DNA of 64,000 nucleotides. It comes from Scenedesmus sp. ARA3. Taxonomy: Eukaryota; Chlorophyta; Chlorophyceae; Sphaeropleales; Scenedesmaceae. The stretch covers positions 23,787-87,786 of the forward strand of contig RWJK01001434.1 in assembly GCA_004335835.1 (NCBI GenBank), given 5' to 3'. Below the pieces are notes generated by a model. That model did no database searches. It was not told where the DNA came from and saw nothing but the letters and a program-made list of their open reading frames with translations. The position numbers and the translations under genes were made by a program. Of this stretch, positions 2,419 through 60,800 are shown in pieces (positions within the stretch are counted from its first letter, which is position 1; every line of letters starts with the position of its first letter).

Positions 2419-5400
2419 TGGGCAAGCTGGTGTACTGCACGCGCACCGTGCCTGAGATGGAGAAGGTGCTGGCTGAGCTGCAGGTGGGGACGGCTGGCGC
2501 AGCACATGCTTCATCGCCAAGGAACACAACTTGCTGCAGCTGTCGCTGTTGCTGTTATGCACAGTGTGGGCTAATGAGTGTAGGTGCAATGCGAAGAAGC
2601 CCTGCAGGTGTAGAGGGGTAGGGCACAGGAGGGGAGCGGCTCTGCTCTACACAACCTGACGTGCGGTCCCCGCAGCAGGGCTGTAGCATAGCCTGGTGTT
2701 GCCTGTTTCGTTTTGCCATTGCTGCCGCCAACAGCAGCTGTCAGCTTGATTTTTGACCGCTCGCAGTCATATGTCTTGCCTGCTGTGCTTACTGGCCTTG
2801 GGTCACCTGTGCTGCAGGAGCTGATGGAGTACCGCAACAAGTACCTGGGCCCCAACCCGCCCCCCATCATGGCGCTGGGGCTCAGCTCACGCAAAAACCT
2901 GTGCATACACCCGCAGGTGGCAGGTGCGGGGCATCAGCGGGCAGCGGCGGGCGTAACATTGCGGCACACAGAACATATGCTGCGTGTGTATATGGTGCAC
3001 ATTTGGCTGTGACTTTTGCAGTGTGTGATGATGTTTTGTGTGAAGTTCAAAGCTGCTGCCAGTTGCAGCACATGGGCTGTTTGGTGGGTTACATGACATG
3101 CAGCACACAGGAATGTCTTTGACAACAGGCCTGCAGGTACATGCATGCATTACATGCTGCATCTCACCCGACCTGACCTGACCTGACCTGCTGCTGCCTG
3201 CTGGCGTCAGAGGAGGGTTCGCGTGAGAGCGTGGACGCGGGCTGCAGGCGGCTGACCGCTAGCTGGGTGCGCGAGGCGGCGCTGAAAAGCCCCGACATTG
3301 ACACCTGCAGCTTCTTCGACGCGCACGAGAAGGCAGGCCAGGAGGCGCTGCTGCCACCAGGTGAGGCCGGGAGCAGCATGCATGGTACATTGTGCATGGT
3401 ACATTGTTGCCGCCAACTGATTCCTGGTGATTTCTCAGCAGCACTTGCTGGCATCCCCAACGGCTTCTGCACCGCTTCATCAATGGCATGTGGTACAAAC
3501 TACGCGGCGCATGTCTTTGTGCTGCTGCTGCTGCTGCTGCTGCTTGGCGCGGGCCAGGCGTGTACACGCTGCACGACCTGCGCGTGTTTGGGCGCAAGCA
3601 GGGCTGGTGCCCCTACTTCCTGGCGCGCCACATGATGAGCTTCGCCAACGTGGTGGTCTACAACTACCAGTACATGATAGACCCCAAGGTCTCACAGGTG
3701 AGGCTCCACTTCAACTGAAAACCTTGTTCTATTATCCACAGGGCGGCTCTCATGTGCCGCTGCGCTGCAACTGCACACTAGTTGTGCTCTCAACCACCAG
3801 CACATGATCAAACCAAAATTTCCCAGATGATGATGCCTTCACGGGAACATGTTACGCTCATGGGTGCTCTTGCTGCTGCTGCACACGGGGTGTCCGCAGC
3901 TGCTGGCACAGTGCTGGCCTAGGGCTTGCCGGGAGCACACCGCAGGAAGAACAGGCAGCAGGTACACTTCAGCAGTCACAGCGCGGTGCTGGGTACTCCC
4001 CCTGCTAACATACTTTTGCCATGGCCTCAGTGTGCTTTTTGCACAGTTCCACATGACAGGCTTGCGACTACTGCCGCTGCTGCTGCTGCTGCTGCTGCTA
4101 TGACCAGATGGTGTCTCGTGAGCTTGAGAAGGAGTGTGTGGTGGTGTTTGACGAGGCGCACAACATCGACAACGTGTGCATCGAGGCGCTCAGCGTCAGC
4201 CTGCGCCAGCAGACGCTCAACGCCGCTCGCCGCAACATCACCAAGCTCGAAGGGGTGAGGGGCTGTCGGGGTTTAAGGGCTGACGTGTGGTTTTGATGTC
4301 CAAGGACAACAGCAGGCGACCCACTGTGGAGCTTGTTGCATGCTAGCGGTTGGTCTGCAAGTATGTCACAGCATATGCTGCAGTGCCGATGTGATTGCAG
4401 GCAGAACAACATCGCATCAGTGATGCGGCATCATGCAAGCTTTCGTCAGTACTGAACAGTGCTGATGCTTTCAGGTTGCCAATCAACCAATTGTGCGGTC
4501 GACTAACCTGATTGTACAAGCACACGCCTTGCGCGCCAGAATGTCGTGCAAGAGGTGCGCAAGGCAGGCCACCAACAGCCGTCGGCTTCAAGATCAGTCG
4601 TTGGCTGCATGTCTGACTGTGCAACGTCATGCCTTGCAGGAGGTGCGCAAGGCGCAGGCTGCCAACCGTGCGCGGCTTGATGAAGTGTAAGCTCTTGCTG
4701 CATGTCTCATGCTGGACCTGTGCATGTCTGCGCCTGTTGTCTCACTGGAGGTGCGCAAGGCGCAGGCGGCCAACCGTGCGCGGCTTGATGAGGAGCAGGC
4801 AGACTTGCCATATAGTAACTCTGACCTGTAGGACCTGTGCGTTTCTGCACTTACTGCATTGCAGGAGGTGCGCAAGGCGCAGGCAGCCAACCGTGCGCGG
4901 CTTGACGAGGAGCAGGCAGACTTGCCCTATAGTAACTCTGACCTGTAGGACCTGTGCGTTTCTGCACTTCCTGCATTGCAGGAGGTGCGCAAGGCGCAGG
5001 CAGCCAACCGTGCGCGGCTTGACGAGGAGCAGGCAGACTTGCCTTATTGCAACTCTGACCTGTATGACCTGTGCATTTCTGCACTTACTGTTTCACAGGA
5101 GGTGCGCAAGGCGCAGGCGGCCAACCGTGCGCGGCTCGACGAGGAGTACCGGCGGCTGGTGGGCAACCTGGTGGAGGCGCAGCAGCTGCGGGGCGGCGAG
5201 GAGTGGCTGGCCAACCCAGCACTGCCCGAGGACATCGTGAGGGAGAGCATGCCGGGTGCGGCGCGTTGCATACACCTGCCAACGGCCTGCTTGAGTTGTC
5301 TTTGTTTGTGTGCTTCGCGGCGCTGAGCCTAGTTGCGGAGCAGCTCGCACCTGCTGGGCGGGCTCAAAGCCAGCGTGGCTGTTGTGACTTGATGCTCTTG

Positions 5401-8171: not shown

Positions 8172-8861
8172 GGTTGATGATTTATTGGTTGATGGTTGTG
8201 CGTGTGCAAGCTGCTTGGGCGTTGTACTTGCGTTGATGCAGTTGTCTCGAGCCTGAGCTGCACAGCACAGAAAGCTTGCCTTTGGTGCGTGCTGCATGTT
8301 GTGACTTGCTGCCAGTGCATGAAAGGCCTGTGTGCATGAGTGTTGCAGTGACACGTCAATTGCACATCTAGTCAACTGGTCACGTGTTGTTGGCGGCGGT
8401 GGTGGTGGTATCCCCAACAACCACACTAGTCTGGCTGTGCGTTACCGCAGCTGCCTGCATGCAGGCTGCGCGGCCAGCTGGTGTTCATGTGGCCACTGCG
8501 CAGCCCATATGCTCGTCTGGCAACGCCTTATTTGCATCACCCACAAAGATCGTGTTGCAGTGTTGTGGTTTGTGCCATGCGTGCTGAGAGATTGCACGCG
8601 GATTCATGACTGTGTTACAGGCCAACCAACTAGGGTTTTGTATCGAGGCCACTCTTGCAGTGCACGTGTATCTGTAATTGAATCAAAAACTGCTAGTTTG
8701 GTTCCTTACTTTAAGTGCTGCCGTGTTGGCGGTACGAAGCTTCTGCGCTGTTTGGTCAATCTCCAATCGACATCGCCTTGACTTGCACGATAGTCGCTCA
8801 TATTATCACCAGTGACAAATATTTCTGTTTTGAAACGGCTGTTTAGATACAAGCCGCGAAC
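8172..8861. other. XPD 3' region and upstream region of SLC44-like gene
   Basis: No open frame here looks like protein. The XPD 3' UTR with a TGTAA signal occupies the left part. The right part (about 8700-8861) is more AT-rich than its surroundings and should contain the promoter of the downstream transporter gene. Confidence 0.5.
8673..8677 (+). terminator. Probable poly(A) signal of XPD (TGTAA)
   Basis: TGTAA lies about 500 bp after the XPD stop codon. TGTAA replaces AATAAA as the common poly(A) signal in chlorophycean algae; the assignment is by position and motif only. Confidence 0.5.
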
Positions 8862-16615: not shown

Positions 16616-16653
<38 letters not shown>

Positions 16654-22497: not shown

Positions 22498-22535
<38 letters not shown>

Positions 22536-23772: not shown

Positions 23773-23777
23773 TGTAA
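23773..23777 (+). terminator. Possible poly(A) signal of MSH6 (TGTAA)
   Basis: First TGTAA noticed after the MSH6 stop, about 690 bp downstream. Assigned by motif and position only. Confidence 0.3.
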
Positions 23778-25095
23778 GCAGCAAGCTCAGTGTGCACATT
23801 CAAGGCAGCAGCGCAGCGCATTGCTGCACAGCTCAAGACATTCAACAGTGCACAATGGTAGAAAAGCCAGCTACAGCAGGATACGTGATCATTTCCTAGA
23901 CTGCGGCAGCGCCAACACCGGGATTGCATGGGCATGCGTGCAGTGCTATCTCGGCCATGCAATGCCAGCCAGCAAATGATCCTTGCACACCTGTCTTGCG
24001 ATAGCCGGGAGTAGAGACGCATCTTCACTTCACTCTGTTGACCATGACATCTGTGCAGGATGAAAACATGCGGAGAGTAAGACGGAGGGTTTCTTTCAAG
24101 TACTAGTTGGGGCGACAGACAAAGCTGTTGATGCTGGCTAAGGGCTGAGCTGCTGCTGTTGCTGCCAAGCTGCTGCTGCTGTACTGCCGCTGCCACTCTT
24201 GCTGTGCTGCTGCTGCTGCCGCTGCTGGCTGTGGTGCTCAAACTGACGACTGCCCTGCTGCTAGAGACAAACATCATGTGCGTGTACTTACCTCGGGTGT
24301 TGTGGTACTCTTTGGTGTGCGTGTGTGGCGAGTCTGTTGACCATGATGTGCCTGCGTAGGATAAAAGCACATGCAGAGAGTCAGACGGGTGTTTGTCTCA
24401 AGCAGATGTGGGGGCGACAGACATAGCAGGTGATGCAGGCTAAGGACTGAGCTGCTGCTGCTGTTGCTGCCAAGCTGTTGCTGCTGTACTGCGGCTGCCA
24501 CTAGTGCTGCTTGTATGCTGCGTCTGTGCTGCTGCTGCTGCTGCTGCTGCTTGTGCTGACGACTGCCCTGCTGCTGATGACAAACATCCACGTGTGTGTA
24601 CTTAGCTCGGATGTTGTGGTACTCTTTGGTGTGCGTGTGTGGCGAGTCTGTTGACCATGATGTGCCTGCGCAGGATAAAAGCACATGCAGAGAGTAAGAC
24701 GGGGAGTTGTCTCAAGCAGATGTGAGGGCGACAGACGTAGCAGATAATGCGGGCTAAGGGCTGAGCTGCTGCTGTTGCTGCCAAGCTATTGCTACTGTAC
24801 TGCGGCTGCCACTAGTGCTGCGCCTGTGCTGCTGCTGCTGCTGCTGCTGCTGCTGGCTGTGGTGCTGAAGCTGACAACTGCCCTGCTGCTGATGACAAAC
24901 CATCCCCGTGTGTGTACTTAGCTCAGGTGTTGTGGTACTCTTTGGTGTGCTTGTGTGGGCAGTCTGTTGACCATGATGTGCCTGCGCAGGATGAAGAACG
25001 TGCAGAGAGTCAGACGGGTGTTTGTCTCAAGCAGATGGGGGGGCGACACAGACATAGCAGGTAGTGCGGGCTAAGGGCTGAGCTGCTGCTGTTGC

Positions 25096-25267: not shown

Positions 25268-25323
25268 GCTGTTGCTACCAAGCTGTTGCTGCTGTACTGC
25301 GGCTGCCACTAGTGCTGCATCTG

Positions 25324-25488: not shown

Positions 25489-25538
25489 NNNNNNNNNNNN
25501 NNNNNNNNNNNNNNNNNNNNNNNNNNNNNNNNNNNNNN
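25489..25538. other. Assembly gap, 50 N, in the ~310-bp array
   Basis: Fifty unresolved bases within the tandem array, where collapse of repeat units during assembly is likely; the true array may be longer. Confidence 1.
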
Positions 25539-31648: not shown

Positions 31649-34600
31649 ATGGATAGTCTGCTAGACTTCGATCAGGAGTACCTAGAGCCTCCTTGGGGCC
31701 CTTACGGTCGGGACCTGACCCTAGGCATCGTCTCAATGGCCAGCAAATTCATCCTGCAAGTGCTAAACAGCACAAAGGTGATCAACCATGAAACATACAA
31801 GGAGCTAGTGCACAACCGCCCAGAGGGAGTGGGACTGCTGACCATCAGCAATCACACCAGGTGCGTCACAGGCTGCAGTACCTGCTGTGCTGCTACTGCT
31901 GTCATCCAGCAATCTACTATGCAAGGCGACGGCTGTGCTGCTCTTGGCATGCTTGATGAAGTAAGAGTATGTAAGCTGTCCGCATAAGCCGTAGGGGTAG
32001 GCAGCAGCGTGCCAGGCGCAGCAGTATGCAGCCAAGAGCCACTCCCAGCACTGCCCTGCCATGGCCCTCTTGTACTGTGCATGTGCAGCATATGAGCCTC
32101 TGCTGCAAGGAGCACCGCAGTATGTGTGAAGGCCGACTACTTGTAGCAGCTGCTCAGCAGTGTCTGGTCACCCCTTATGATGCTCCTCATCACTAAGCGG
32201 CTGCCTGCAGGGTTGCAGGCTGCGCCACAGCCAGTCAGCGTGTACTGCTGCATTCGAATCAAAACAGCCACCAAGTCAACTGCGCCAGGCAGTCCGCACA
32301 TCTGCTCCTACCACCGGCTGAGCGACGATGCTCTGTTGAGTTACCTTTGCGCATCTGCATCTGTGATTCACATGTGCTGCTGCTGCTGCTGCTGCTGGGC
32401 TGCAGCACGTTTGATGACCCTGGGCTGCCGTGTGCGATGCTGCCGTGGCACTTCTTCTGGACGGAGCACAGCCACTGCAAGAACCGCTGGACCATGTGCG
32501 CCAGCGACATCTGCTTCACCAACGAGGTCTTCAGGTGCGGCGCTTGGGGAGGGGGCCGGGTGAAAGCACAAGCAGTGGACAGCAGCGTGCAGCAGTGTGT
32601 AAGTGCAGCTGCTTCACCAACGAGGTCTTCATGTGCGGCACTGCGACGATCAAGGTCCCACTGCAATGTACAGCAACCTGCAGCAGTGCCTACGTGGCTA
32701 GTGACTGGACATGTAGCACAGCAATGCTCAGCAGCACAGTGTACGGCAGTGCCTGCATCTAGCTGCTTTCACCAGCGAGGTCTTCCAGTCCGGCGCTGGC
32801 AGGGATGGACAGCACAGCAATGTACAGCAGTGTACAGGAATGTACAGCAATGTACAGAATTAGCGTTACATACAGCGCTGTACAGCAGTTTGCCTGCTGA
32901 GTTGCTGCAGCTGTTACTCAGCAGTGCAAGCAGAGTCGAGCAGCAGTGGTGCAAGCATACGTCAGACAGCAGTGAGCAGGCAGTGCTCAGCTGGCGGCAG
33001 CAGCGGCTGCAGCGAGTGACACTATTGTAGACGTACATACCGACACCAGCGATACGTGCTGCCTTGGCTGCCCAGCCGCCATGCAGGCTGCTGCAATGTG
33101 CAATTGCTGTGTCTCTAAACCCTATTCAAGTATTCATCATCCTCCTTGCTGACACTTGCGTACTACATAATCCATTGCAGGCAGTTCTTCCTCAATGGCA
33201 AGACGCTGCCAGTGGAGCGGGGTGCAGGCGTAGGCCAGCGCATCATGGGCGTGGCTGCACGGGCGCTGGCGCAGGGCGAGTGGCTGCACATCTTCCCTGA
33301 GGGCCGCGTCACGCCTGACGGGCGCGTGGGCCCCTTCAGGCAGGGCATTGGGCGGCTGGTGTGTGACGCCAAGGCGGCAGCAGGCGGCAGGTGGGTGACT
33401 CTGAAACAGGCAGTTGTGGCGCAGGACGCTGCCTGCTTTGTGGTTGTGTCACATGTCATGCGTGCAGCAGCAGAGTATAGGCTTGTTTTCCTGCACAAGT
33501 GCCGCATGCGGTAAGCTCAGGGGCAGTGGCTGCACATCTTCCCTGAGGGGCGCGTGAGGCCTGATGGGCGGGTGGGGCCCTTCAGGCAGGGCATAGGGCG
33601 GCTGGTGTGTGACGCCAAGGCAGCAGCAGGCGGCAGGTGGGGGCAACAGGGAGCTTGGGGCCTGGCTGTGCATCGCAAGGTGGCGCCTGCTGTGTGTGCG
33701 ACGCTATGTGCGCGGTGGCAAAGTGCACAGATGGCCATTGTCGCAAAGGCACCTGAACCTGTTTGTGTGTCGCATCTGCATCGCATCTGTTTGCGTTGCA
33801 GATGGCGATGCGCTCGCCATTCCTGGCATTGTTTTCCGACATCTGCCATAAATCAGGTCTTTGGGTGCTGCTAGTGCCTGCGCTGCACAAATCATCACAT
33901 GCATTTTGCTGGACAATGTACGCATTCTGCTGTAGCTGTTCATACATGTGTGACAAGTTTGTACTGCGTGTGTAACACCTCTCTGCAGGGACCCAGTCAT
34001 CCTGCCCTTCTTCCACAGCCACATGTCCCGCGTGATGCCCTTCAAGTCGGCAGTCCCCCGTGCGGGACACACCGTGACGGTGGCTGTGGGCCAGCCGCTG
34101 GAGCTGGGACACATCACATGCAGGTGCAACCAGCCAGGTGAGCAGCCAGGGTGCAGGTTAAGGTTGTGGATGACTTGCCGCACCAGAACAGGCCAGCCTC
34201 AGCCGCTGGCTCCGGGACACGACACCTGCAGGTACAACCAGCCAGGTGAGCAGCCAGGTCGCTTGGTGCAGGTGTTGGTCTGGTTTTCATCACTGGCATG
34301 CAGTGCGGCTTGGCTGCTGAGCTGGCCTGCCGCAGCTGTTGAGCTGCTGAGCAGGGGTCTCACCACAGGCAGGTGGGCAGGCAGCACAGCTGGCTGTTCT
34401 CTGTTGCCGCATGGTATGTGTGCTGGTATTAATCCAGCTGCTGCTGCTGCTGTGTCGGACACGTGACTTACAGGTAGCCTCCTGCTACTCTGTATGCTGT
34501 GAGGTTCTTGGCCTGGGAATGCATAGTAAGACCAGTGCATTTCGTCAGTGCCCAGATGTGGTGCTGTGGTAGCAGTGCAACTGCTGCTGGTTGTCGCCGT

Positions 34601-34901: not shown

Positions 34902-35000
<99 letters not shown>

Positions 35001-36566: not shown

Positions 36567-39500
36567 TCTAGCTCTGTGTCGCGTGCTAGCTCAACCGCTG
36601 CTGGACTTACAGCAGCGACGGCAGCATGGCGATGTGTGGTGCTCCTTTAAGTGCACAGCAGCAGGGCGCCATGCTGTGCTTTTAGTGCCGGTTGTTGCAA
36701 CACACTTGAAAGTGGAAGGTGAAACAGTGTGATGGCTATGGCAAGTTCACAGCTGCATACATGTGTTGGTCTGCATTGCACCCGCTGCGTACACCCTGGC
36801 TGTTGCCGCAGCAGCAGATACAGGTGCAGGCTTGGTGATTCCAGCAGCTGCACCTTCCAACCATGTATTTGACAAGCTCTACACATTTGTTACATTGTTG
36901 GCTGTGCATTTTGCGCTGCAGCGGCTCTTGCGGGAGGCAGCAGCGGCCGCCCTTTTGAGGTGGTGCAGGAGATGGGCCACCAGCTGGCCAACATGGCCAT
37001 GCTGTACGTGCTGATCGGCCTGCTCAACAAGCGCGCCAGGACGGCAGGCAACAACGCAGCGCGGCAGGTGCGGGGACAAGCTCGGGGCAGCAGGGGCGCT
37101 GTGCGCGAAAGACGCGGCAGCAGAGCTGGCGGCAGCAGCAGTGGCAGCAGCAGAGGCAGGTAGCTGGCGGCAGGTGGCGGTGAATGGGCTGCTGGGTGAC
37201 TGCAGTTGCTGGGGACGTGCTGAGCTCTCTGCATTATTAAAGTGCAAGTGCAGGGATGTTGGCGGCAACAGCGTGCAGCAGATGCAGTGCTATGTCCATC
37301 TGCATGGGCCTGGCCATTGAAGATTGTTGTGCTCTGCTGCCGCCGCCGCTGCTGCTGCTCTTCCTGCTGCTGCTGTGCTGCAGGAGGAGGTGTTGCTGTC
37401 CATCTGCATGGGCCTGGCCATCTGCAACCTGCTGGCCAGCCTGCGCACAGACAACGCGCAGGACTACGTGTACGTCTCGTTCTTCCTCATCTGTGAGTGG
37501 ACGCTGACGCCAGCTGTGCAGCTCGCTGGGGCAGTAGCAGCAGCAGCCGCAGCAGGGGCAGCAGAGACATTCAATTGCAGCAAAGGCAGCACGAGCAGCA
37601 AAGGCAGCAGCATCAATCGCAGCAGCAACAGCAGCAGTGGCCCCTTATATGCAAAATCTGCTGTAGGCGCCAGCACCCTGTTCAAGATCTGCTGTGGGTT
37701 TGAGAAACGGCAGCATTCATTCATACTATAACCTGTTTCGTGATTCTGCAGCGCCGCAGGCACCAGCACCTTCCTCAACATCCGCTGGTGGGTGGGCACG
37801 GGGCTGCTGGCCACTGGGTTGCATACACACCACAACACAGTTTTAAATCCACTAACCTTAAACACATATCATACTTACAAACCTGCCGCAGGCACCAGCA
37901 CCTTCCTCAAGATCCGCTGGTGGGTGGGCACGGGGCTGCTGGCCACGCCCATGGTGGCGGTGCAGTGCTGGTACGCGAGCCCGGCGCCCTCAGCGCTGCT
38001 GCCGCCTGATGCGCTGGTGCACATTTTTGTGGCGTGGGCGGTGGGCGGGCTCATGGCATACCTGTCAGACTGGTACCGCAGGTGGGCCTTGTGTAGGGAG
38101 GAAAACACTCGTGTGTTTGGTTTTGACGGAGATGTGGTGTGCTTGGTGGTTTGTGTGATGCTTGGATGCATCGTGCCTGGTATGTGTTGCGTGCGTGCTC
38201 TTGGGGTTGCTGTTGCTGCAGTGCCATGCAGTGAGTGGTGGGCTCATGGCGTATCTAGTTGGACTGGTACCCCCTCTAGCACATCTCATCTCACGTGCGC
38301 GCATATCCTCCACTCCGCGCCCGCAGGCAGATGTATGCGAATGCGCGCCTGTGTCTGGCTATGTCACTCTGTTTCCTGTGTGTGACAGCATACCCCTAGT
38401 GTCCTCGAATCTTACGCCTTCTTTCAACGCGCACACATCCTTCGCCCCGCGCCCGCAGGCAGATGTATGCGAATGCGCGCCTGGCGTGTGCCGCTCACGA
38501 GAAGGAGATGATGGAGGCGACAGCACGCATCCAGGTGAGCCGCATGAGCGGCAACCAAACTTCAACTGAACCTTCCTTTCTGAACTGTTCATATGCCGAA
38601 ATCCACCCAGCCAAGCAATGAAAGCGCTTGGAAATGCACTGATGAAGGGCAAGATCAGCGCGATTCAGTTGCCTGACAACGATCGGCACGCCAGCCAGCA
38701 CAGCAGTAAGCAGTAAGCGTTGAGATGTGCAGCGCCGCAGCAGGCGCCAGTCCATCACGCTCACCAACATACTTCTGTTTGCAAATGTTTCTGGTTGCAC
38801 ACTGCAGGCGCAGCGGGAGCTGGCGGCAGCGCAGGCGCAGGCGGCGCAGCGCGCGCTGACCGTGGCACGGGAGAAGGCGGCGCACGAGGTGCGGCTGGGC
38901 GGTGTTAATCACAGGCCGGTTCACGGCTGGCTAAAGGCGTTACGGGTTGTATCAAGCGTTGTCAGGGGTTGTCTCAGGCTTCAGGGGTTGTCTTAGGTGT
39001 GTTTGTGCAGCTGGCGCGCTTGCCGCAAGGCACAGACGTTGCCGGGCGCCCGTGCAGTCCATGGCCAGTGGCCTGTGCAGCTCTGTCTGGCCGGGACTGT
39101 GCCCAAATGCAGACCTGAGGCGGTGCGTCATTCATCACCTGGGTGTTGCTGCGCCTGCAGGCCAAGAGCGAGTTCATGAGCCTGTTGTGCCGCTGACACT
39201 CTACCAAGCGCTGACATTCTGCTGCTTCTTGCCTCGCTGCGCTTCTGCTGCGTGTGCCTGCAGGCCAAGAGTGAGTTCATGAGCCTGATGTGCCACGAGG
39301 TGCGCACCCCGCTCAACGGCTGCCTGGCCAGCGCTGAGATGCTGCTGGAGACACCCCTCAAGGTGCGGTGTCAAGGCGTGCGTGCATGGGTTCACCCTGT
39401 TGTGGCTCATATCATCTCATCTAAGCTGGTGCTAGGACCCACATGCAATCTTCCTTTTTCACATGCTTGCTTGTGTATCTGCTGTCATTGCTTGCCGCTG

Positions 39501-40196
39501 CCATTACAAAATTTGCCGATCAGTTGCTAGGGTGTTGTTGTTTGCTTGGTTAGCTAGGGTTGAAGTATGTTTGAAATGGTGGCAGGACAGCCAACCACAG
39601 CACAATAAAGGAAGCTTTGTAGTCAGCTTACACCTGACCTGGTTATGCTGTGCTGCTGCGCTGTGCTGCTGCCTCTGTCGTCTGCTGCCGCAGGAGGAGC
39701 AGCGTGAGCTGGCCAACACCATCCGCGTGTCAGGCTCCATCCTGCTGTCAACAGTCAGCAACTTCCTGGACTTCTTCAAGTGAGGCTGACGCAGCTACGG
39801 TTGTAACATGTTATGAAACGTCATATCATATGTCAGTTGTGTAGCAGCAGCATGCTTGGTAGTTTGGGCTGGCGCATTACCAAGACACCACACTCATGTA
39901 TGCCTGCTCAAGCTAAGAATGGCGGCTGTACCTGGCTTGCGTGGCGCATAGGCAACACAGATCTGCATGCAACCTCCTTACCCTGCATTTTAACTTCGGA
40001 CGCGCTTGTTGTGCCCGCTCTGCCTGCAGGCTGGAGGCGGGCAAGCGGCTGGACATTGTGCGCAGCGAGGTGGTGCCGGCGCACCTGGTGGGCGACGTGC
40101 ACTGCATCATTGAGGCCATGATCGGCAAGGGTGGGCCTGTGGCACTGCAGCCCCCACAGCTGGCGGGTGTGCCTGAGGTGAGGGGGCCTACAGTGG

Positions 40197-40234
<38 letters not shown>

Positions 40235-40465
40235 AGGGCTGCGATGGCAGCTTGATTGGACAGCGATTGCATGAGGTAGAAGACGGGATGGGAGCAGAGT
40301 GCAGGGTGGGGTGTAAGTTGTAAAGCAGCAGCTGCAGCTGGGGTAAGGGTGGCCACAGCGGCTGCGTGCAGAGATGTGCACTGCATCATTGAGGCCATGA
40401 TCGGCAAGGGTGGGCTGGTGGCGCTGCAGCCGCCACAGCTGGCCGGCGTGCCCGAGGTGGGTGGG

Positions 40466-40502
<37 letters not shown>

Positions 40503-42122
40503 GTATGTGTCAGCAGCTGTGTTGGGTTGCACAGCGCGTGTTTGCGGATGATTTTGGAGCTTGCTTTGCAGCTGCAGCGTAACACATGTGTTCTTGTCCT
40601 GATCACTGCACTCCTGCTGTTGTGCTGCATCCTGTGGCACCCTGCTCAACCTGTACACCGCCCCGTTGCTGCCGCCGCCGCCGCCGTCGCCGCTGCTGCT
40701 GCTGCAGTACGTCTTCTGCGACCCGGACCGCCTGCGCGGCATCCTGCTCAACCTGTACACCAACGCAGCCAAGTTCACCAAGCGCGGCCACATCGTGCTG
40801 CGCGCGCGCTGCGTGGCGCGGGACTACACGCCGCCTGCGCCAGCCGGCTACAGTGCCATCATGTTACAGCCCAGCTACCACCCCAGCAGCAGCAGCCACA
40901 GGTGAGCCTTGAACAGCAGAAAGACCCTCTGCATGTTGGCTGGTGTACATCTGCATTCCGGTGTGTATGTGTAGCAGTGTGTCGGGGGTCACGTGCTTTG
41001 AAACTGATGTGTGTTGCTGCAGCACGGTGCAACCGCTGGAGTTGTGTGTAGCTGTTTGGTTTGTGCATTTGGCTGCTGATCATGTTATGAGTGGCGCTGA
41101 CAGCTGGTCGGCTACAGTGCCATCATGCTGCAGCCCAGTTGGCAGCCCAGCAGCAGCAGCGCCAGGTGAGAGCTGGTCAAGGATTGATCAAGCCAAGCAA
41201 GTTGATGCAGGCTGCAAGGTAAGATAAGGTTTCCCGCGAAGCAGGGATTAGGAGACAGCGAGGCAGCTTTGTCAAGGTGGCGGGTGTACGTGTGCATTCC
41301 AATGTGTGGGTGTAGCAGTGTGCTAGTCTGTCAGAAATGCTGCTGCACTGCGGTGTGTTGCTGAACACCCCGCCTGCGCCGGCCGGCTGTAGCGCCATCA
41401 TGCTGCAGCCCAGTTAGCACCCCAGCAGCAGCAGCCACAGGTGGGTGTCTTCTAGTTGAGCTGCGGCTCAAATTAGCGATTGTATGTCTTGTTGGCGCGC
41501 CAACTGTCATGCTAGTGGGCGGACTTGATGGTGCTAGCAACTCAATGGCAGCAGTACAACAGCAGCAGTAGCTGTCATGGCTGTGGCCGCACGATGCCCA
41601 TTGGAGCGCATGCATTCCTATTACGACTGGAAGCAGCAGCCCATGGCGCTGCCTGCTGCTGTCTGCTGTTGTTTCTGCAGGAGCATGGACATGTCCAGCT
41701 GTGTGGTGCTGACGCCGCCTGCTGCTGATCAGCCGCAAGGCAGCATGAGCCGCGCGGAAGTGCTGCAGACAGCGGCAGCGCCCGTCGCAGCTTCTCCTGC
41801 TGCTGCAGATGACTCAGACAGCAGCAACCTGGAGCCACCACAGCAGCAGCGACAGCAGCAGCAGTTTGAAGGTGCGGACAAGGATAGCCAGCAGCAGCAG
41901 CAGCAGCAGCAGCAGCCGTTCTGGCAGCAAGCGTCGCAGTGGGCCCTCAACCTGCTGCCTGGTGAGCTTGCAGGCAGTCAGCTGCCTTCTGCTGCCGCTG
42001 CTGCTGCTGCTGCCGCTGCAGCAGCAGCAGCGTGCAAACACGATGGGCTGAGCGGCTGTGCAAAAGCAGCTCAGTTTGATGTGCATGCAATGAGCGGCCT
42101 GAAAGACGGCCTGCAGGATCCC

Positions 42123-42154
<32 letters not shown>

Positions 42155-44504
42155 AGACCCCGCAGCCGCAAAACCACCACCAGCAGCAGCAGCAGCGGCA
42201 GCAGCGCCGGCTGGCGCGAGTAAGAGCAGCCTAAGCGGCAGCGGCGGCAGGCGCAACAGCATGAGTGGCAGCGGCAGCGATGTGTCTTGCTGGCTGCTGT
42301 TTGAAGTGGAAGACACAGGGGTGGGCATCACCCGGGATGGCCTGGCCACGCTGTTTAGGGAGTATGTGCAGGGCACAGACGATGAGATGTGCAAGCCACG
42401 CACCAGAGGCGGCACCGGCCTGGGGCTGAGCATCTGCAGCAAGCAGGTGAGGCATAGTGTTATACGTTGGATTTGATGAGTGGATGTGATGCACTGCATG
42501 CGTGGGAGTGTCCTGGGGCTGAGCATCTGCAGCAAGCAGGCGAGGCGCTGCATCTTTGGCACTGCATCTAAGGTGCTGGTTGTGGGGCACTGCATGCGTG
42601 GCACTGGCCTGGGGCTGAGCATAATCTGCAGCAAGCAGGTGAGGCGCTGCATTCAAGGTTGTGGCTGGTGCAGGCGCCGCGCCAGGCATTGCGCTTCATC
42701 TCAATGAAGCCCCTGCGCATGTGTCGGGCAGCGCCAGAAGGCAGCTACGCACTTGTCTCCCACGCCACCACCTGCTCCTGATGTTGCTGCTGGCGTGTTT
42801 GCAATGCACCTTTGCTTTTCTGCTCTTGCGCAGGTGGGTGTGCTGGGTGGCGTGATTGGGGCCCACTCCTGCAGGGGCCATGGCTCCACCTTCTGGTTCA
42901 AGATCCCCACCTACATGCGCCCCTCCAGGAGCAACAGCAGCAGCCTGGGCAAGCAGCAGCAGCAGCAGCAAGAGCAGGTGCAGCAGCACCCGCGGCAGTC
43001 ACTGGAGCGGCGGCGGAGAAGTGTGTCAGCAGATGCATTGCGGTCGTCAGGGCAGCAGCAGCAGCAGGAGGAGTCTGACTTGGCACGAAGCAGCAGCAGC
43101 AACTCGAATACAGGCACCTACACTGTGATACACAGCGGGCTGTACCACCCTAGCCAACCCCTGCCCAAAAGGTCAGACGAAGCAGCAGCAGGCCAGCAGC
43201 AGCAGCAGCAGCAGTCGGCATCATTGCCAGAAGGTTCTGTAGCAACAGCCGGCGGCAGCAGCAGCAGTGTAGCAGCAGCAGCAGCAGCAGCGCCAGCTGC
43301 TCATGGCGGCACCAGCAGTAGCAGTAGTAGTCAGCAAGCTGCAGCATCAGCCGATGCATGTGCAGATGGCAGCAAGCCAAGCTCTGGCATGTCAGCTGAC
43401 TCTGCTGCAGCAGCAGCAGCAGCAGCAGCAGCGCCGTCTGCCCTCAAGCCACCCCAGCCACGCGGCGCTGCGTCAACTGCAGCTGCCGCCGCTGCCAGTG
43501 CATCAGCTGCAGCAGCCTCATCTGCTGCTGCTGCTGCTGCTGCTGCGCCTGCTGCAGGCGGCCGCAGTGCCGCGGGTGGTGCAGCTGCTGTGCCTGTGCG
43601 TGCGCGGCAGTCGCTGAGCCTTGACGGGCGGGCGCCTCCTGCGCTGGACACTGCGCGGCTGGTGGGCAGGCGGGTGCTGCTGGCTGAGGACAACCTCATC
43701 AACCAGGTGCGGGCGCAGCACCTTACTCACCTCACTTATGCCGTATGTATGTGGTTTCGCAGGCACTTGTAGCCAGGTGTGCTGAGGCTAACGTCACCAA
43801 TTAGGTGCGGCTTCCTCAAATGCATTCACAGTTTCCGCCGTATGTTCGTACCCTCGCTGCACTGCCAGTGCAGCCGCACACACATCACCTTCGGCAGACA
43901 CCTCCGGCAACGCTGCGTCTTGCTCCTCGCCTGCAGACCGTGGCGCGCAAGATGCTGAGCAGCCTGGGCATAACAATAAACACATTGTATCTATTTGCAC
44001 ATAATAACAATTAACTAACCTTTGGTGTTCGACTTGGTTACTGTCCTGCCTGCAGACCGTGGCGCGCAAGATGCTGAGCAGCCTGGGCATGCACGTGGAG
44101 GTGGCAGTCAACGGCCTGGAGGCACTGCACGCGGTGCAGCGCACAGCGGCACAACAGCAGCAGCAGCAGCTAACCCCTGCCACCAGCAGCAGCAGCAGCA
44201 CGGACGACAACACCAGCAACAACAAGCCCGACAGCAGCGGTGCAGCAGCTAGCACTCCTGCGGAGCAGCCGTTTTCCATTGTGCTGATGGACATGGCAAT
44301 GCCGGTTATGGGTGGTGTGGAGTCCACGCAGCAGATCCGATCTCAAGGCTTCAACTTGCCGATTGTGGCCATGACGGCCAATGCGAGTGACAAAGACAGG
44401 GACGAGTGTGCGGCAGCAGGCATGAACGGCTTCCTGAGTAAGCCGGTGCTGAGGGACCAGCTGGCCCGGGCGCTGCTGGCGGCGCTGGAGGACTATGATG
44501 GGAC

Positions 44505-44544
<40 letters not shown>

Positions 44545-44556
44545 AGTGAGCAGTAG
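35873..44556 (+). CDS. Membrane-bound hybrid sensor histidine kinase
   Basis: Two-component kinase with its own receiver domain; signal unknown. Exons: 35873-35941, 36346-36451, 36937-37067, 37384-37492, 37892-38081, 38459-38534, 38808-38888, 39264-39362, 39694-39779, 40030-40177, 40708-40901, 41681-42446, 42834-43706, 44056-44556; phases close, 1142 aa. Residues 1-200 hold about six membrane helices (such as VLMWVFAFDVFCFMFRFIA). A coiled coil (202-254) precedes the HisKA domain with MCHEVRTPLNG, phospho-acceptor His265. The N box (ILLNLYTNAAKF) starts near 377; G1 (DTGVGI) and G2 (GGTGLGLSIC) close the ATPase domain. A ~220-residue Ala/Ser/Gln linker leads to the receiver: LLAEDN, acceptor Asp1055 (IVLMDMAMPVMGG) and SKPV. 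About 40 Gln/Ser-rich residues interrupt the receiver before Asp1055. The protein ends in poly-Gln. Exon 3's acceptor is the least certain junction. Confidence 0.92.
37754..37817 (+). repeat. Ghost copy of histidine kinase exon 5 start
   Basis: CCGCAGGCACCAGCACCTTC and about 40 more bases match the acceptor and start of exon 5 at 37886-37945, with one substitution changing Lys to Asn. Confidence 0.92.
38318..38352 (+). repeat. Ghost copy of histidine kinase exon 6 start
   Basis: GCGCCCGCAGGCAGATGTAT and following bases match the acceptor and first codons of exon 6 at about 38449-38485. Confidence 0.9.
39153..39186 (+). repeat. Ghost copy of histidine kinase exon 8 start
   Basis: GCCTGCAGGCCAAGAGCGAG TTCATGAGCCTG repeats the exon 8 acceptor and first eight codons (39256-39287); it breaks off before the H box. 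Confidence 0.9.
40374..40458 (+). repeat. Ghost copy of histidine kinase exon 10 end
   Basis: About 85 bp match the 3' part of exon 10 (40098-40180), from the GTGCACTGCATCATTGAGGC stretch to the GAG/GTG donor. Differences are mostly silent, suggesting recent duplication or past selection. Confidence 0.92.
41104..41445 (+). repeat. Two ghost copies of histidine kinase exon 11 end
   Basis: The exon 11 end (GGCTACAGTGCCATCATG through the poly-Ser codons and donor) is repeated at 41104-41172 and 41380-41445 in intron 11. The second copy contains TAG. Confidence 0.9.
42512..42645 (+). repeat. Two ghost copies of histidine kinase exon 12 end
   Basis: The G2-box codons CTGGGGCTGAGCATCTGCAG and donor are repeated at about 42512-42545 and 42597-42645, each with the preceding CACTGCATGCGTGG block, making a short tandem array in intron 12. 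Confidence 0.88.
43929..43971 (+). repeat. Ghost copy of histidine kinase exon 14 start
   Basis: GCCTGCAGACCGTGGCGCGC AAGATGCTGAGCAGCCTGGG repeats the acceptor and start of exon 14 at 44048-44089. Confidence 0.93.
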
Positions 44557-44586
44557 TACTGGCGGTGCTGCGGCACCAGCTGCGGT

Positions 44587-44760
44587 GCTGCAGGACCAGC
44601 TGGCGGGGGCGCTGCTGGTGATAATGCAGGACTATGACGGCCTGCAGCAGCAGCAGCAGCAGGGCGAGCAGTAGTCGCGGTCCTTGCAGCTGCTGGCGGC
44701 GTTGAAAGACTATGATGGCCTGCAGCAGCAGCAGCAGCAGCAGCAGCAAAGTGGGCAGTG
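44587..44760 (+). repeat. Two copies of the kinase C-terminal coding end in the 3' flank
   Basis: The last ~100 bp of the coding region (GGACCAGCTGGC..GCGCTGCTGG..GACTATGATGG, CAG run, stop) is repeated at 44587-44674 and 44683-44760, downstream of the true stop codon. Confidence 0.88.
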
Positions 44761-54714: not shown

Positions 54715-54831
54715 TATAACCAGGTGTTACAGTCAGGTATTATAACCAGGTGTTACAACCAGGTGTTATAACCAGGTGTTATAACCAGGTGTTATAACCA
54801 GGTGTTATAACCAGGTGTTATAACCAGGTGT
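54715..54831. repeat. 15-bp palindromic minisatellite at the USP stop codon
   Basis: Seven to eight units of ATAACCAGGTGTTAT, whose ends (ATAAC/GTTAT) are inverted repeats, run up to within a few bases of the stop codon of the minus-strand ubiquitin protease at 54834-54832. Two distal variant units (GTTACA) give TGTAA on the minus strand at 54731-54727 and 54757-54753, so the array may also supply the poly(A) signal. Confidence 0.9.
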
Positions 54832-57800
54832 CTACCGCTTCTTCTTGCCCTTGCTGCCCTTTTTGCTGCTGCTGCCCTTCTTGCTGCCGGCCTGCTTTAC
54901 ACCCCCACCAGCTACCACACTGCCACCCCCACCACCTGCTGTTGCTGAATCCCCCAGCTCTACCCCATCCTGCCCTGCTGCTGCTGCTGCTGCTGCTGCT
55001 TCACCCTGCTGCTGCTGCTGCCTGCCATGCCGCAGGCCCTGCATGGCCTGCTGCCCCGCACTGCTGTGCCGGCCAAAGAAGCTGTTCAGATCCATCTCAC
55101 TCATGACAGCCCTCATGCTGCGCATTGGCACCAGCACAAGGCTGCTGTCGCTCTCGCTGCCGCTGCTGCTGGCTACATCCGGCCCACTGTCGGTTGAGTG
55201 CCAGTGCACTGTGCTGTCGGCAGCGTTGCTGCTGCTGCCGCTGCTGCCGCTGCTGCTGCCAGCTGCAGCTAGGTGCAGCTTCAAGCTGAGGACCTGCCGC
55301 CGCCTATACAGCTTGCCGCTCACAGCAGCAACAACCTGTGCGCCTGCTGCTGCTGCTGCTGCTGTGCTATCTAGGGCAGCTGAAGCATCACTAGCAGCAG
55401 CACTGCCTGATCCAGCAGCAGCAGCTGCAGAGCCAGCTCCAAGCACAGGCAGCAGCGGCACCTCCAGGGCAGCAAACCTGCCAGGCACTTTGAGCAACAG
55501 CCGCTGCAGCTGCGGGCCAGCATTGACCACATCCACACACACCTGAGAAGCTTGCTGCACGCCCGGCAGGTGTGCACGCAGCTGCAGCAGCTCGGGCCCG
55601 ACACGCTTGAGGCTGTACACCACTGCTGGCAAGATGCTGCTGCCATTTACTGCTGCTCCTGTTACTGATTCTGCTGCTGCAGAGCCATCCTGCTGCTGCT
55701 GCTGCTGCTGTTGTGTGTCGGCGGCTTTCCGTAATGAGCCGCTGCTGTCTGCGCTACTACCGATGCGTGAGTCATCCTGCTGCCGCTGCTCTGGGCTTTG
55801 TTGCTGCTGAGGTGTAGCTGCTGCCCCCGCTGCTGCTGCTGCTGCTGCTGCTGCTGCAGCCGAAGGCGTGGAGCAGCCCGAGCTGCCTGCACCAGCTGCT
55901 GCTACCCCAGATGAGGATGACGTCAGCGACGCTGCCAGCTCCTCCTCATCTTTGCTGCTGCTGCTGGCAAGCTCATCCGCCATCCTCACAAGCGCTGCTG
56001 GCGCAGTTGACACCCGCGCCAAATGCTCTGACGCCAGCGGCTGCTGCTGCTGCTGCATTGCTGCCTCCTCCGCTACTCCATTGACAGCAGCAGCGTCCTG
56101 CTGCTGCTGGTGCGGAGCTGCTGCTGCGGGTGTAAGTGGCCGTTGCCGCTTGTAGCCCGGCTGCGGGGCGGGCTTTGGCGTGTCACGCGTGTAGAACAGC
56201 ATGTATGCATTCTGGCTGAGCACGCGTGAGGGGCTGGTGGGGGCCACTCGCGCATCATCGCAGATGTACCAACGCCCGTCCGCTGTGCGCACAAAGCAGA
56301 TGTAGTGCCCGAAGCTGGTGGAGTTCATCTGCGCAGCAGCAGCAGCAAACACGCAGCAGGGTCAGCACAGGCTGCAACAATGAAAACTGCTGGTGTTTGA
56401 GTGAGTTAGTAGGCAGGACCCACAATCAACACATCTCTCGTTTCAGCCTAGAAGCAAAATATTGACTAGGAAGGCCGCACCTAGTCCAGGTGCACGATCA
56501 CACCCGACAATGTTCAAATGACCGGCAGAGCAACAGATGTGAAGATGCAGTACACCGCAGAAGCAGGCAAACCCCTCCTCACCTGGTCCAGGTGCCGACG
56601 GTCACGCCTGTCAGCTGCCAGCCGACAACCCGGACCACCTCTTGACCCCGCCTCAACACAAAACCATTACCGTGCATGCCATCAAGCCACCAACTCCAAA
56701 GCCAGCTGGCAGTCACGCTCACGATTCTATCAAATGAGTGGAAAAGGTGGCCGCACCTGGTCCAGGTGCACGATCACGCCGCTCAGCGTGTAAGTGACTG
56801 GGCCCTCGTCCATGGCCTGCTGCGCCATGAAGGGAGACAGGTCCAGCGCCTCGCCATACACCAGCACCTGCAGAGCCAGAAGACACAGCACCCAGCACGG
56901 CGCGTGGATCATCTGTGCAGACATAAACCCGAAGTGTTACGTTTGCTGACACTTGTCGCCTGACAGATGCCGGAGTTCAGCTAGACAACATAACAAGTTG
57001 ACTTACGCCAGCCCACTTGTGATCGAAGCAGACAGCTGCTCACACCCGCCAGCACTTGCATTCCTAACAACAATAACATACAGAAATGACAACAAAGTAA
57101 CACCAAAGTAACAACAGCGCCCCGCACCTTGTTGATCTTGCCGAAGCGGCCCGTGCCGAAGCGCTTGAGGCACAGCACCAGGCTGTTGGGCGCCACCTCA
57201 AAGCGCGTGGAGCGGCACGCGCGGCAGCGCCGCCCGCAGCCGTCACACGCGTAGCGGTTGTCCCCGTCCAGAACCTCCTCTGCGGGGGTGCAGCAGCAGC
57301 AGCAGCAGCAGCAAATCTGTTGAGACGCTTGTGGTGTTCTTGCAGCGTTGCCCGCAACATCACACGCAAAGCGGTTGTTCCCATTCAGCAGCCTCCCCAG
57401 TGGGTGGACGGTTGTAACATAGTAACAGCAAGGATCGGCAGCGTAGAGACAACGTACGTCATGCAGGTGGTGGTGATGAGGCGCAATGGTGACATGCCAC
57501 GGTAAGTAAGTAGGATTCCAGTCCCTACCTGCAGTGTGCCGCGCAAGTGCCAGCTGCGGGTCTGGCCATCACCCAGACACCGCCCATTACTAAACCTAAA
57601 CACTTACACCCACCTGCGGTGTGCCGCGCGAGTGCGTCCTCCAAGCGGTCCACCCCCCCCGGTCACCTCCAGCTGCAGGTCTGGCCACCACCCAGACACC
57701 AACCATTACTGAACCTGAATCCTAAACACTAACACCTACCTGCGGTGTGCGGCGCGAGTGCATCTTCAAGCCGGTCCACGCCCCCAGGCACCTCCAGCTG

Positions 57801-60800
57801 CAGGTCTGGCCATCGCTCAGACACCTAGTTTTGCAGGATGCTGCACTCCACCACCACAACAACACCCATCTGCACAGCGCCAGCGCCAGCGCATCCTCCA
57901 GCCTGTCCTTGGCCGCAGGCAACATGCTTTATGCCGCATGCTTTAAACCCTTGGGTAAAGACACATAACTTGTTTCAGATACAACCAATTGAAACTATCT
58001 TAACCACCCACCTGCGGTGTGGCGCGCGAGTGCGTCCTCCAGGCGGTCCACGCCCCCAGGCACCTCCAGCTGCAGGTCCAGGCACGCCTCATAGCGGCGG
58101 CTGGCAGCGCCGCAGCCGCCACACACCACCTGCAGCACAATGGCAGTACAACAACAGAGCATGAGGCAAATGCTTTGCTTGGTAACAAGGCAGCAGTGTG
58201 GCCCTGTTATGAGCTGCAGGTCAAAGCACGCCTCGTGCAGCCTGCTGGCGGCGCCGCAGCCGCCACACACCACCTGCAGCAGGCGGCATACAAAAGCACA
58301 CGCAATCAACAGCCATCCGGCGGAAAGCGGCACAAACCGACACCGGGAGGACCGTGAAAACGTATCAAAACATTGGCAGCGGAGCAGCAATCTGGTCATA
58401 TGATGCAGCAGGCAGTTGTACAGCCACTGCAACAGTTGGGGCGGGAATAGTGGTGTTGGCACTTTGTTGTATGGTGGGCAGCAGATGCTGCCTGCAGAGT
58501 GCAGCACGCACAACATGCGTCACAGCTGACCAGTTGCTGAGAATGTGCTATGCACCGTTGCTGGTGCCTGCCGCTGCTGCTGCCGCTGCGCACCTGGCTG
58601 CGCAGGTAGCCTCCAAACACGTGGTGCACCAGCGTAGTCTCCTGCGTGCTGCAGCAGCACACAAACACACAAGCACGCACCACAGTAGCAGCAGCAGTAC
58701 ACAACACGTTGACAATGGTCATTGAGGTAAGTCCCACAAAGGGCCGGGATGAGCCAGCAGAAGAAGCAGGCTGAACCATCTGAACATAGCAGTCCCAGCC
58801 TTACTGCATGTCGCACCGCTCCTTGCTGCCATACTCAATCAGCGACTTGTTGACTCAGGCTTCCAATCCCACCCCCACAACGCATATCGACACGCTCCTT
58901 TCAGCCATAGCTTGAGCAGTCTTTCTTACAAAAGGTGAAAACAGAGCTAAGCCTCCGCTGCCCCCTCACCGCATGTCAAAGCGCTCCTTGCCGCCGTAGT
59001 TGGTCAGCTGGATGGCCTCCAGCGTGTTGAGCAGGCTGTAGAAGAACTCGTGCGCGTCCTCCTGCCGCCCCAGGCTGAGCGTCTTGGCAAAGCGCCGCAG
59101 GTGGCTCAGCAGCGGCCGCACCGACACCTCCGAGCCAACAGGAGCCTCCGCCATGCGCTTGCACAGCACCTGCACACATGTTTGAGTGTGAATGGATTTG
59201 TCATGACGTGTTATGATGTTATGGTGCGAGTTGGGTGACATCAGCAGGCAGGTTGCATGTTTGGGCCATATGCTTGCATAGTGCGCGGGCTCTTACAACA
59301 CTGCTACAGAGGCCATGACAGCGGGTGCTGGCCGCTGATGCACCCTGCTGTGTTTATTCGCGCTACAGCCACAGCTGGCCGACGCCGCTGCTGCTGCTGC
59401 TGCTGCTCACACCACTAAGCCCCTTGCTGCATCCACCCGGCTCAGCACACAGCTCAAGGGATACACATAACAGCCCACCACACAGCCCCGCTTGCTGCCT
59501 GCTTGGCCGCTGCCAGCCCTACACTGCTGGCCCTCCCAGTGCTGCTGCTGCCACTGCTTTCCTGCATGTCACTGTGCAGGCCACTGCTCCCCTTCGCGAT
59601 GATAGCCACACACACCTGCAGCTGGCACAGTAGGCACCACTCGTTGCCGGGCTTGTTGCAGTCCCTACTGTGCAGCCCCTGGTCCAGATAAGCACGCAGC
59701 GGCCGGCTAGCCAGCAGGCACTGCAGCGCCGAGTTTGCATAGCAGTTGTTGCCGTGGTTGGTAAGCCCAATCGGCGGCCGCCTGCAGCTGGTCCTGTTGT
59801 GGCAGAGCTGCAGGTAGTGCTGGTAGGAGAACAGCACCTGCCGCGGCACTGGCGCATCCTCATTTGGGTCGAGGGGTGGCGGCTTGCTGAGGCTGCCGTT
59901 GCTTGCAGGATGGCCGCTGCTGCTGCCCAGTGCGGCTGCTGCAGTCTGCGCAGCAGCCTGCTTCTGCAGGTTGTCGCATTCAAACTTGTGGTTGGAGCCC
60001 CAGTCCTTGCGCTGGCATGCTATCGAGCTGCGAGGCGAGTTGGCAGCAGCAGCAGAGCCATAGCCAAAGACAGCAGGGGCAGGCGCAGAGAGAGGCAGGG
60101 TGAGCAGCGATACAGCAACAGGAGGCAGTATACATGATGCAGGTGCGTAATGTACCGTGCACCAGAACCTGCAGCCATTACTAATAAGTTATGGGCAGTA
60201 TGTGCTGAGCAAGGCCCTGCTGCCCTTGTTGCGTCATCTTGGCTTCGACGCCTGCTGCCCTCACTGTGCGTTCGATACATCAGTGGCGCTACTTCATCCC
60301 AGCAGGGAGTGCGCGCTGCTGTTGCACGCACAGCTGCTGGTGCTGTAGCTGAAAGATGTATGGTGTTGAGAACGCTGAGTCAGACACATTGAGTGCCACG
60401 ACCGCTACTGCCTCTCCGCATGCCATGCTACTGCTTGCTGCCTTGCTACTGCTTGCTGCCTGCTGCGTGCTACAGCCCGGCATGGCTCCTGCAAGCAGCT
60501 CTCACCAGTACTTGACAGACTTGCATCTGCTGCAGTGCGTGGTGGTGGGCTTGCTGCAGACTCTGCACAGCCCCGCATCAATGGACATCCGTCTGGCGAT
60601 TGCTGAGCGCTCCCACCAAGGCTCCCCGTCTAACGAGGTCCGAGCAGCAAACACGTGCTGCCGCAGGTCCTGAGAGTCCCGCCACAAGCCCGCAATACTG
60701 CACCACAGTAAGATCACAGAGGCTTGAAGCTTCGACAGCGCAAACAGCAGCGCAAAGACAGCTGGAGGGCACTGCTGTGGTGGCAAGAGCTGCTAGTGTG

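Follow-up and report, generated by a model that had tools for sequence, protein, structure and literature searches.

The ends of coding exons are repeatedly duplicated into the adjoining introns or flanks of four genes, namely XPD, tafazzin, a hybrid histidine kinase and a ubiquitin protease, in a stretch of 64,000 nucleotides from the green alga Scenedesmus sp. ARA3 (GCA_004335835.1, contig RWJK01001434.1, positions 23,787 to 87,786; the whole stretch is hereafter called the window). Such copies also occur, though not throughout, in a sample of 24 further stretches of this genome (L009-L032), which together with the window amount to 282 kb in total. Exon-end duplication is real, local, strictly direct and not peculiar to the window, and the finding is broader than was reported in an initial annotation of this DNA. 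There is good evidence that segments spanning splice junctions have been duplicated at exon ends many times over, always in direct orientation and over short distances. Furthermore, the exon-derived half of the copies diverges less than half as much as the intron-derived half. The best explanation, to which we would give an even chance, is local duplication across splice junctions followed by re-templating of the exonic half from the living exon. That exons would thereby serve as master templates which overwrite decayed copies of their own ends in neighbouring introns, a form of exon-driven concerted evolution that would make junction duplications long-lived, we hold to be possible, somewhat short of probable. 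The source was a single assembly (87.3 Mb in 1567 contigs), analyzed from its assembled sequence alone.

Exon-end copies in the window and in the wider sample

Self-comparison of the window was performed using BLAST with low-entropy masking at E values up to 0.1, and pairs of at least 45 bits were taken as the main set. The initial annotation had counted about 17 places in the four genes where an exon end recurs. At this threshold 16 were found, 1 in XPD, 3 in tafazzin, 9 in the histidine kinase and 3 in the ubiquitin protease, and two weaker protease pairs raise the number to 18. In the alignments an exon end is repeated together with its splice site and some intron within the adjoining intron, and the similarity is graded from near-identical to decayed, as had been claimed. 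The features are as follows, with the supporting evidence in brackets (TRF, Tandem Repeats Finder).

4541..5032, plus strand: XPD intron array with a unit of ~117 bp, holding partial copies of the acceptor and the first ~48 bp of the exon (TRF period 117, self-BLAST)
near 4637-4689, 4747-4798, 4864-4915 and 4981-5032, plus strand: the clear copies within the XPD array (self-BLAST)
5099..5255, plus strand: the real XPD exon, whose 5' end at 5096-5148 is the source (identified by alignment with XPD of human, from PDB, and of Tetradesmus obliquus)
32508..32642, plus strand: tafazzin exon 32406-32534, its 3' end at 32508-32544 being repeated in the intron at 32606-32642 (self-BLAST, alignment)
32763-32843, plus strand: decayed third copy of the tafazzin exon end at 32508-32544 (self-BLAST, alignment)
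33269..33641, plus strand: tafazzin exon 33181-33394, its 3' end at 33269-33395 being repeated in the intron at 33515-33641 (91% over 127 bp) (alignment)
34092..34258, plus strand: tafazzin exon 33989-34123, its 3' end at 34092-34150 being repeated at 34200-34258 (self-BLAST, alignment)
37293..37421, plus strand: kinase exonic sequence at 37397-37421, close to the 5' end of an exon, repeated at 37293-37317 (25/25) (self-BLAST, alignment)
37753..37946, plus strand: kinase exon 37892-38081, its 5' end at 37885-37946 being repeated upstream at 37753-37814, 61/62 identical (self-BLAST; exon by tblastn 37894-38082)
38297..38483, plus strand: kinase exon 38459-38534, its 5' end at 38429-38483 being repeated at 38297-38351 (self-BLAST; tblastn 38454-38543)
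39150..39294, plus strand: kinase exon 39264-39362 (HisKA), its 5' end at 39253-39294 being repeated at 39150-39191 (Pfam, self-BLAST; tblastn 39261-39362)
40094..40452, plus strand: kinase exon 40030-40177, its 3' part at 40094-40173 being repeated at 40373-40452 (self-BLAST; tblastn matches the copy too, at 40373-40465)
40826..41402, plus strand: kinase exonic 40826-40863 (exon 40708-40901) and distant copy 41365-41402 (self-BLAST, alignment)
42411..42652, plus strand: kinase exon 42022-42446 (HATPase), its 3' end at 42411-42453 being repeated twice downstream, within 42512-42652 (Pfam, self-BLAST)
43924..44090, plus strand: kinase exon 44056-44556 (response regulator), its 5' end at 44044-44090 being repeated upstream at 43924-43971, 47/48 columns (Pfam, self-BLAST; tblastn 44053-44490)
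44444..44618, plus strand: kinase exonic 44444-44479, 3' part of the last predicted exon, and copy 44583-44618 (self-BLAST, alignment)
56473..56780, minus strand: ubiquitin protease exon 56757-56867, its 3' end at 56749-56780 being repeated downstream at 56473-56504 (self-BLAST; UCH in Pfam/PDB)
57550..58078, minus strand: ubiquitin protease exon 58012-58129, its 3' end at 58005-58078 recurring at 57733-57806 and at 57607-57681 in a ~126-bp array (TRF, self-BLAST)
58068..58281, minus strand: ubiquitin protease, 5' end of exon 58012-58129 at 58068-58137 and upstream copy 58212-58281 (self-BLAST, alignment)

A tblastn search with T. obliquus XPD residues 269-284 matched the XPD array copies at 4748-4795 and 4865-4912, and the T. 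obliquus XPD protein holds one copy of the segment that is arrayed in the XPD intron of the window. The Acyltransferase Pfam match falls in tafazzin exon 33181-33394. In the kinase, the copy at 37753 is set off from its exon by a 70-bp spacer that is without similarity to the flank, and an older copy near 37666-37704 was found by eye only. One copy of the 3' end of protease exon 58012-58129 carries a one-base indel relative to the exon. The choline-transporter gene (SLC44) and MSH6 were said to be free of such copies, and this was borne out: no pair of at least 45 bits lies between 5.15 and 24.0 kb, which covers the rest of XPD, SLC44 and MSH6, and in a separate alignment test copies were found at 0/10 SLC44 exons and 0/7 MSH6 exons. 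The value for XPD in that test was 0/9 exons, only since the gene finder takes the XPD decoys for exons.

Masked self-BLAST of the window returned 47 same-strand pairs at most 3 kb apart and 6 farther apart. In the 282 kb, 186 direct pairs of at least 45 bits were found, no inverted pairs and 4 pairs between stretches, which is not the pattern of a dispersed multi-copy family such as introners. The window contributed 38 of the 186, and 14 of those 38 fall in one intergenic array at 24.0-25.7 kb. Offsets of the direct pairs were broadly distributed around a median of 226 bp (100-150 bp in 53/186 and below 500 bp in 159/186). Tandem arrays of at least three units were detected by TRF in some cases, yet the exon-linked pairs comprised 48 single and 14 overlapping ones. 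The copies are unevenly distributed over genes (permutation p 0.0024): they occur in 8/13 introns of the kinase run and in 4/5 and 5/6 introns of the runs of L020 and L023, while some sampled stretches, including L011 (0/15 introns) and L032 (0/8 introns), are without copies.

In order to relate the repeats to exons, genes were predicted using a small self-trained hidden Markov model written for this analysis. Removal of 30 pairs outside predicted genes and of 4 by offset or as artefacts left 60 of the 94 nonredundant pairs, all inside predicted genes at an offset of 60-600 bp; pairs beyond these offsets were also omitted from the exon-assignment and intron-side similarity counts. The number of genic pairs involving at least 12 coding bases was 49/60, against 34±6% under random placement with the spacer and one copy kept noncoding. 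Nine of the 49 are exonic in both copies, which this null excludes, and without them the count is 40/51. Exon involvement was likewise 40/52 against 35±6% with the window decoys removed by hand, 34/43 against 32±6% at a stricter exon score and 10/10 against 27% expected for pairs of at least 95% identity. Because the gene finder calls some decoys exons, for example in XPD, copy counts there are lowered. Four pairs in L014 lie wholly inside one predicted exon and are not exon-end copies.

The copies show a marked polarity. Out of 62 pairs tied to one exon, 26 have a downstream copy spanning the donor and 18 an upstream copy spanning the acceptor, while in 15 the source lies entirely inside the exon and 3 belong to none of these classes; only one spans both ends of its exon, as whole-exon duplication would. 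In the alignment test on 182 exons, copies of 5' ends lay upstream in 24 cases and downstream in 2, and copies of 3' ends lay downstream in 20 cases and upstream in none, with 0 matches in a reverse-complement control at the same threshold. In the pairs examined closely, including a set of 13, the copy repeats the same exon end and sits in intron or flank. The polarity described in the initial annotation was thus confirmed, but it is no clue to mechanism, since the repeats are short-range and selection would remove insertions into coding sequence. These two factors suffice to explain it and no special mechanism is required.

It was also considered whether two haplotypes or strains had been strung together at exon ends during assembly. 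Such an artefact would yield similar exons and dissimilar introns, runs of N are present and the short offsets resemble read lengths. One duplication in L023 (7046-7410 and 7578-7942, 365 bp at 100% on both sides of a 135-N run) is probably a scaffold-overlap artefact and was left out of the exon-overlap, frameshift, stop, intron-length and two-halves counts. Against this explanation stand the breadth of the offsets, identities that are graded and not 100%, 24 exons with two to five intronic copies (21 of them with at least two on the same side) and a nested 104/133/503-bp structure in L023. In addition, the tafazzin and XPD regions match only themselves in the assembly and the kinase region matches only two further pieces, of 39 and 43 bp, so that no second allele is seen for any of the three. 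The artefact explanation is accordingly considered unlikely.

Unequal decay of exon-derived and intron-derived halves

The match between exon and copy tends to end at the splice site. In the 48 single pairs the intron-side edge fell within 15 nt of the junction in 29 cases and the exon-side edge in one; the median intron-side edge lay 6 nt past the junction, compared to an exon-side reach of 57.5 nt. Intron-side identity of these single pairs in successive 4-nt bins was 0.75, 0.59, 0.53 and 0.44, a fall within ~15 nt that is less marked in the 14 arrays. A junction-anchored test with matched controls nevertheless detected weak but significant intron-side similarity in 36/62 pairs, arrays included (p<0.02 against random pairings), which indicates that the original duplication spanned the junction, as had been proposed initially. 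Several arrays can in our reading be written A(BA)n, with A for the exon end and B for a piece of intron, the match of the first copy starting near the splice site.

The two halves of the copies were then compared using intronic copies only, each with the others, so that the coding exon is kept out of the comparison. With the window decoys removed, 171/2371 positions (7.2%) differed in the exon-derived halves and 486/2901 (16.8%) in the intron-derived halves, with 14/16 exons showing this direction (p 0.0013). The result was similar with the XPD decoys taken as exons (163/2143 and 405/2506; 13/15 exons, Wilcoxon p 0.0015), at an exon score of 16 (13/15 exons) and at a score of 20 or more (10/11 exons, p 0.014). 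In the five least diverged arrays both halves were low, at 0-5% for the exon-derived and 0-7% for the intron-derived half. In the other arrays the exon-derived half stayed at or below 12% (one exon 16%) while the intron-derived half reached 27%. The observed ratio of exon to intron divergence was 0.43-0.47, compared to 0.68-0.95 for artificial arrays that were evolved neutrally and run through the same pipeline. Homologous parts are in other words more alike than their age predicts, as would be expected of concerted evolution by gene conversion.

These results bear on the view of the initial annotation that junction-spanning tandem duplications simply decay neutrally with one copy remaining functional, the enrichment at exon ends reflecting where duplications occur. 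The intron-side similarity in 36/62 pairs, arrays with similarity over the whole unit (117 bp in XPD and 127 bp in L014), a neutral stop frequency (see below) and the low divergence of both halves in the youngest arrays are in its favour. Plain duplication and decay do not, however, account for exon halves that are about twice as similar as intron halves, beyond what the neutral simulation reproduces, nor for the pairs at 37753 and 43924 in the window and at 8203 in L028, which have 97-98% identical exon parts and flanks no more alike than random pairings. This view retains some minority chance but does not seem likely. Tandem duplication with random ends was ruled out as a full account by the clustering of intron-side edges at splice sites together with the unequal decay.

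Selection on the copies themselves as functional alternative exon ends would be another source of exon-side similarity. The splice dinucleotide is retained in 43 of 49 copies whose real site is canonical, which bears out the claim of decoy splice sites, the exon-derived halves are conserved and the gene finder calls nine of the 60 genic pairs exonic in both copies. Stops, however, were found in 5/60 intronic exon-end copies against 5.2±2.1 expected, an expectation that uses the change rate at codon positions 1 and 2 and tests only constraint beyond it, and 11/60 copies carry a net frameshift. Coding constraint is on these grounds not the explanation of the similarity of the exon halves. The rarity of pairs spanning both exon ends and the single-copy T. 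obliquus XPD also argue against functional ends, which are very improbable; the copies look like neutral, unused decoys.

Mismatches between exon and copy at codon positions 1, 2 and 3 amounted to 6.3%, 4.1% and 17.1%. A separate set of totals (84:43:194) still contains a pair in L024 (3156-3462 and 9146-9462, diverged coding-exon copies ~6 kb apart with 77% identity) that are probably tandem paralogues. Between copies the third-position excess was about 2, and neither base composition nor intronic mismatch rates by base predict the raised third-position rate. This bias was rejected as proof of protein constraint, given stops at the neutral rate. Either synonymous sites evolve more quickly here than the intronic copies do, or inter-homologue exchange gave rise to some copies that were allelic from the outset. 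The latter belongs to a wider alternative, unequal exchange between diverged homologous chromosomes, in which copies would differ like alleles from the start with similar exons and dissimilar introns. It would fit the third-position excess over the neutral expectation and a homology block that stops near the splice site. It predicts equal divergence of both halves among intronic copies, which is not seen, and no second allele is present in the assembly for the tafazzin, XPD and kinase regions searched. We judge it improbable.

As the copies are not kept as coding sequence and their halves are unequal, re-templating from the exon is the simplest account. Short segments straddling a junction would recurrently be duplicated in direct orientation over a short distance, and the survivors would be those duplications that leave the coding exon whole, which would place copies of 5' ends upstream and of 3' ends downstream, unused within the intron. 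The intron-derived half of each decoy would decay freely, while local recombination with the neighbouring living exon, which selection maintains as a constant master, would repeatedly re-template the exon-derived half. This would keep exon-end decoys recognisable, allow single pairs to grow into A(BA)n arrays and leave longer introns with more decoy sites. The homology block would end at the splice site because the exon keeps re-templating the shared part, and exon-end pairs would outnumber intron-only pairs because the latter, without a constant master, fade. Purely mutational targeting of exon ends, though possible, would not be needed if re-templating prolongs detection. We infer re-templating, the role of selection and the molecular step behind duplication and re-templating alike from these patterns; candidate routes of re-templating are short-tract gene conversion, unequal exchange or template switching.

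Several points weigh against re-templating, in addition to the limited reach of the stop test. The mismatch rate at third positions is 3.3 times that at positions 1 and 2, where ~2 is predicted (1:1:2) for a neutral copy and a synonymously evolving exon. In the two-halves test 2/16 exons show the opposite direction, one of them being the youngest array, and each exon-derived half is required to match the exon, a bias that is covered only as far as the simulation models it. Gene models other than those of XPD and the kinase are ab initio, and the XPD prediction still holds 41 extra residues relative to the T. obliquus protein.

Intron length and relation to known systems

Roughly a quarter of the sampled introns (48/177) hold a duplicate, and these introns are longer, with a median of 456 bp (n=48) compared to 287 bp (n=129) for the remainder (p 9e-5). 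The initial proposal of a process that lengthens introns is supported as far as the association goes; longer introns also give duplicates more room, and cause may run in either direction. The mean intron of T. obliquus was reported to be 462 bp, against 230-302 bp in four other green algae tabulated alongside (PMC5966456), which fits a lineage-specific lengthening process and does not prove it. Identities are graded as the claim of different ages and ongoing activity would have it, but copy-exon identity is not a clean clock if copies are re-templated, and that claim is weaker than it looks.

As in the intron gain by AGGT duplication of Hellsten 2011 (as described in PMC4974935), short, direct and local duplication in genes carries splice signals here. 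In that system an exonic AGGT segment is duplicated and the copy becomes a new intron, whereas the copies found here lie in existing introns and flanks. Intron gain, which the initial annotation had coupled to intron growth, was not supported: the window copies occupy introns or flanks, T. obliquus XPD has the segment once, and no intron made by a copy was seen, in an analysis that did not compare intron positions between species. The potato RdRp gene (PMC4974935) underwent a single tandem duplication across an intron-exon boundary that made a new intron, as opposed to the tens of cases in 282 kb described here, which involve both exon ends, longer introns and unequal decay of the halves. In Drosophila, tandem duplication with intron sliding (PMC2891723) similarly alters gene structure through regional duplication near proto-splice sites, but yields new intron positions in coding sequence in place of decoys in old introns. 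For the repeated introns of Cryptococcus (PMC2395259), unequal exchange, conversion or slippage among local intragenic repeats has likewise been invoked; there whole introns are repeated in the repeat region of one gene, while here exon ends are copied into introns of many genes. Introners (PMC9860276), found across many eukaryotes, are also a mass process reshaping introns, but copy themselves genome-wide, unlike the 186 local and 4 inter-stretch pairs found here. Dual-specific splice sites in tandem-repeat genes (PMC10809524) were judged less close. No report of widespread exon-end decoys or exon-templated upkeep was found among the titles and abstract openings searched, in a library largely without subscription papers, and this is weak evidence of novelty.

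The lengthening of introns is difficult to follow as it happens, and a single genome here displays many of its stages together, ranging from arrays that are almost identical to barely recognisable traces. An internal neutral yardstick is provided next to every copy by its intron-derived half, which makes rates of local duplication, local conversion and decoy splice-site tolerance measurable, and the identity of an intronic copy to its exon should not be taken as simple age. If true, exon-driven upkeep would be a distinct mode of intron growth affecting about a quarter of introns, and may be one way in which introns grow; decoys could in turn feed mutations back into exon ends.

Gene models and other features of the window

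Pfam and PDB matches confirmed XPD, the choline-transporter protein, a MutS protein, an acyltransferase, the hybrid histidine kinase and the ubiquitin protease; the names MSH6 for the MutS protein and tafazzin for the acyltransferase are those of the initial annotation. The splice consensus learned by the gene finder was CAG|GTGNG for donors and CTGCAG|G for acceptors. The XPD prediction has 14 exons, the decoys at 4640-5032 having been dropped by hand, and matches 762/769 residues of T. obliquus XPD, by which the source is probably that species or a very near relative. Most kinase exons of the gene finder agree with tblastn of algal homologues; the T. obliquus histidine kinase was absent among the 120 homologues listed and more distant algal kinases were used as queries. 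No match was obtained in an Rfam scan and no tRNA was found with ARAGORN in the window. GC donors made up 16/231 donors in the self-trained models for the window and L009-L032, which, if real, is a rather high proportion. EukProt entry P0001 is an XPD-like prediction of 2070 aa with a recurring C-terminal helicase segment and additional fused sequence; it appears to result from a faulty gene model or assembly in that source.

The intergenic tandem array at 24034-25095, continuing to 25638, consists of ~314-bp units (TRF 3.4 copies and further partial copies), contains a 50-N run at 25489 and is clear of well-supported predicted exons. Nine copies of the 13-bp unit TATAACCAGGTGT, each with a donor-like CAGGTGT, lie at 54715-54831, close to where the ubiquitin protease region has its low-coordinate end. 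An uninterrupted AGC repeat of ~32 units lies inside a predicted exon at 34904-34998, and CAG/CTG tracts are very common all through the window.

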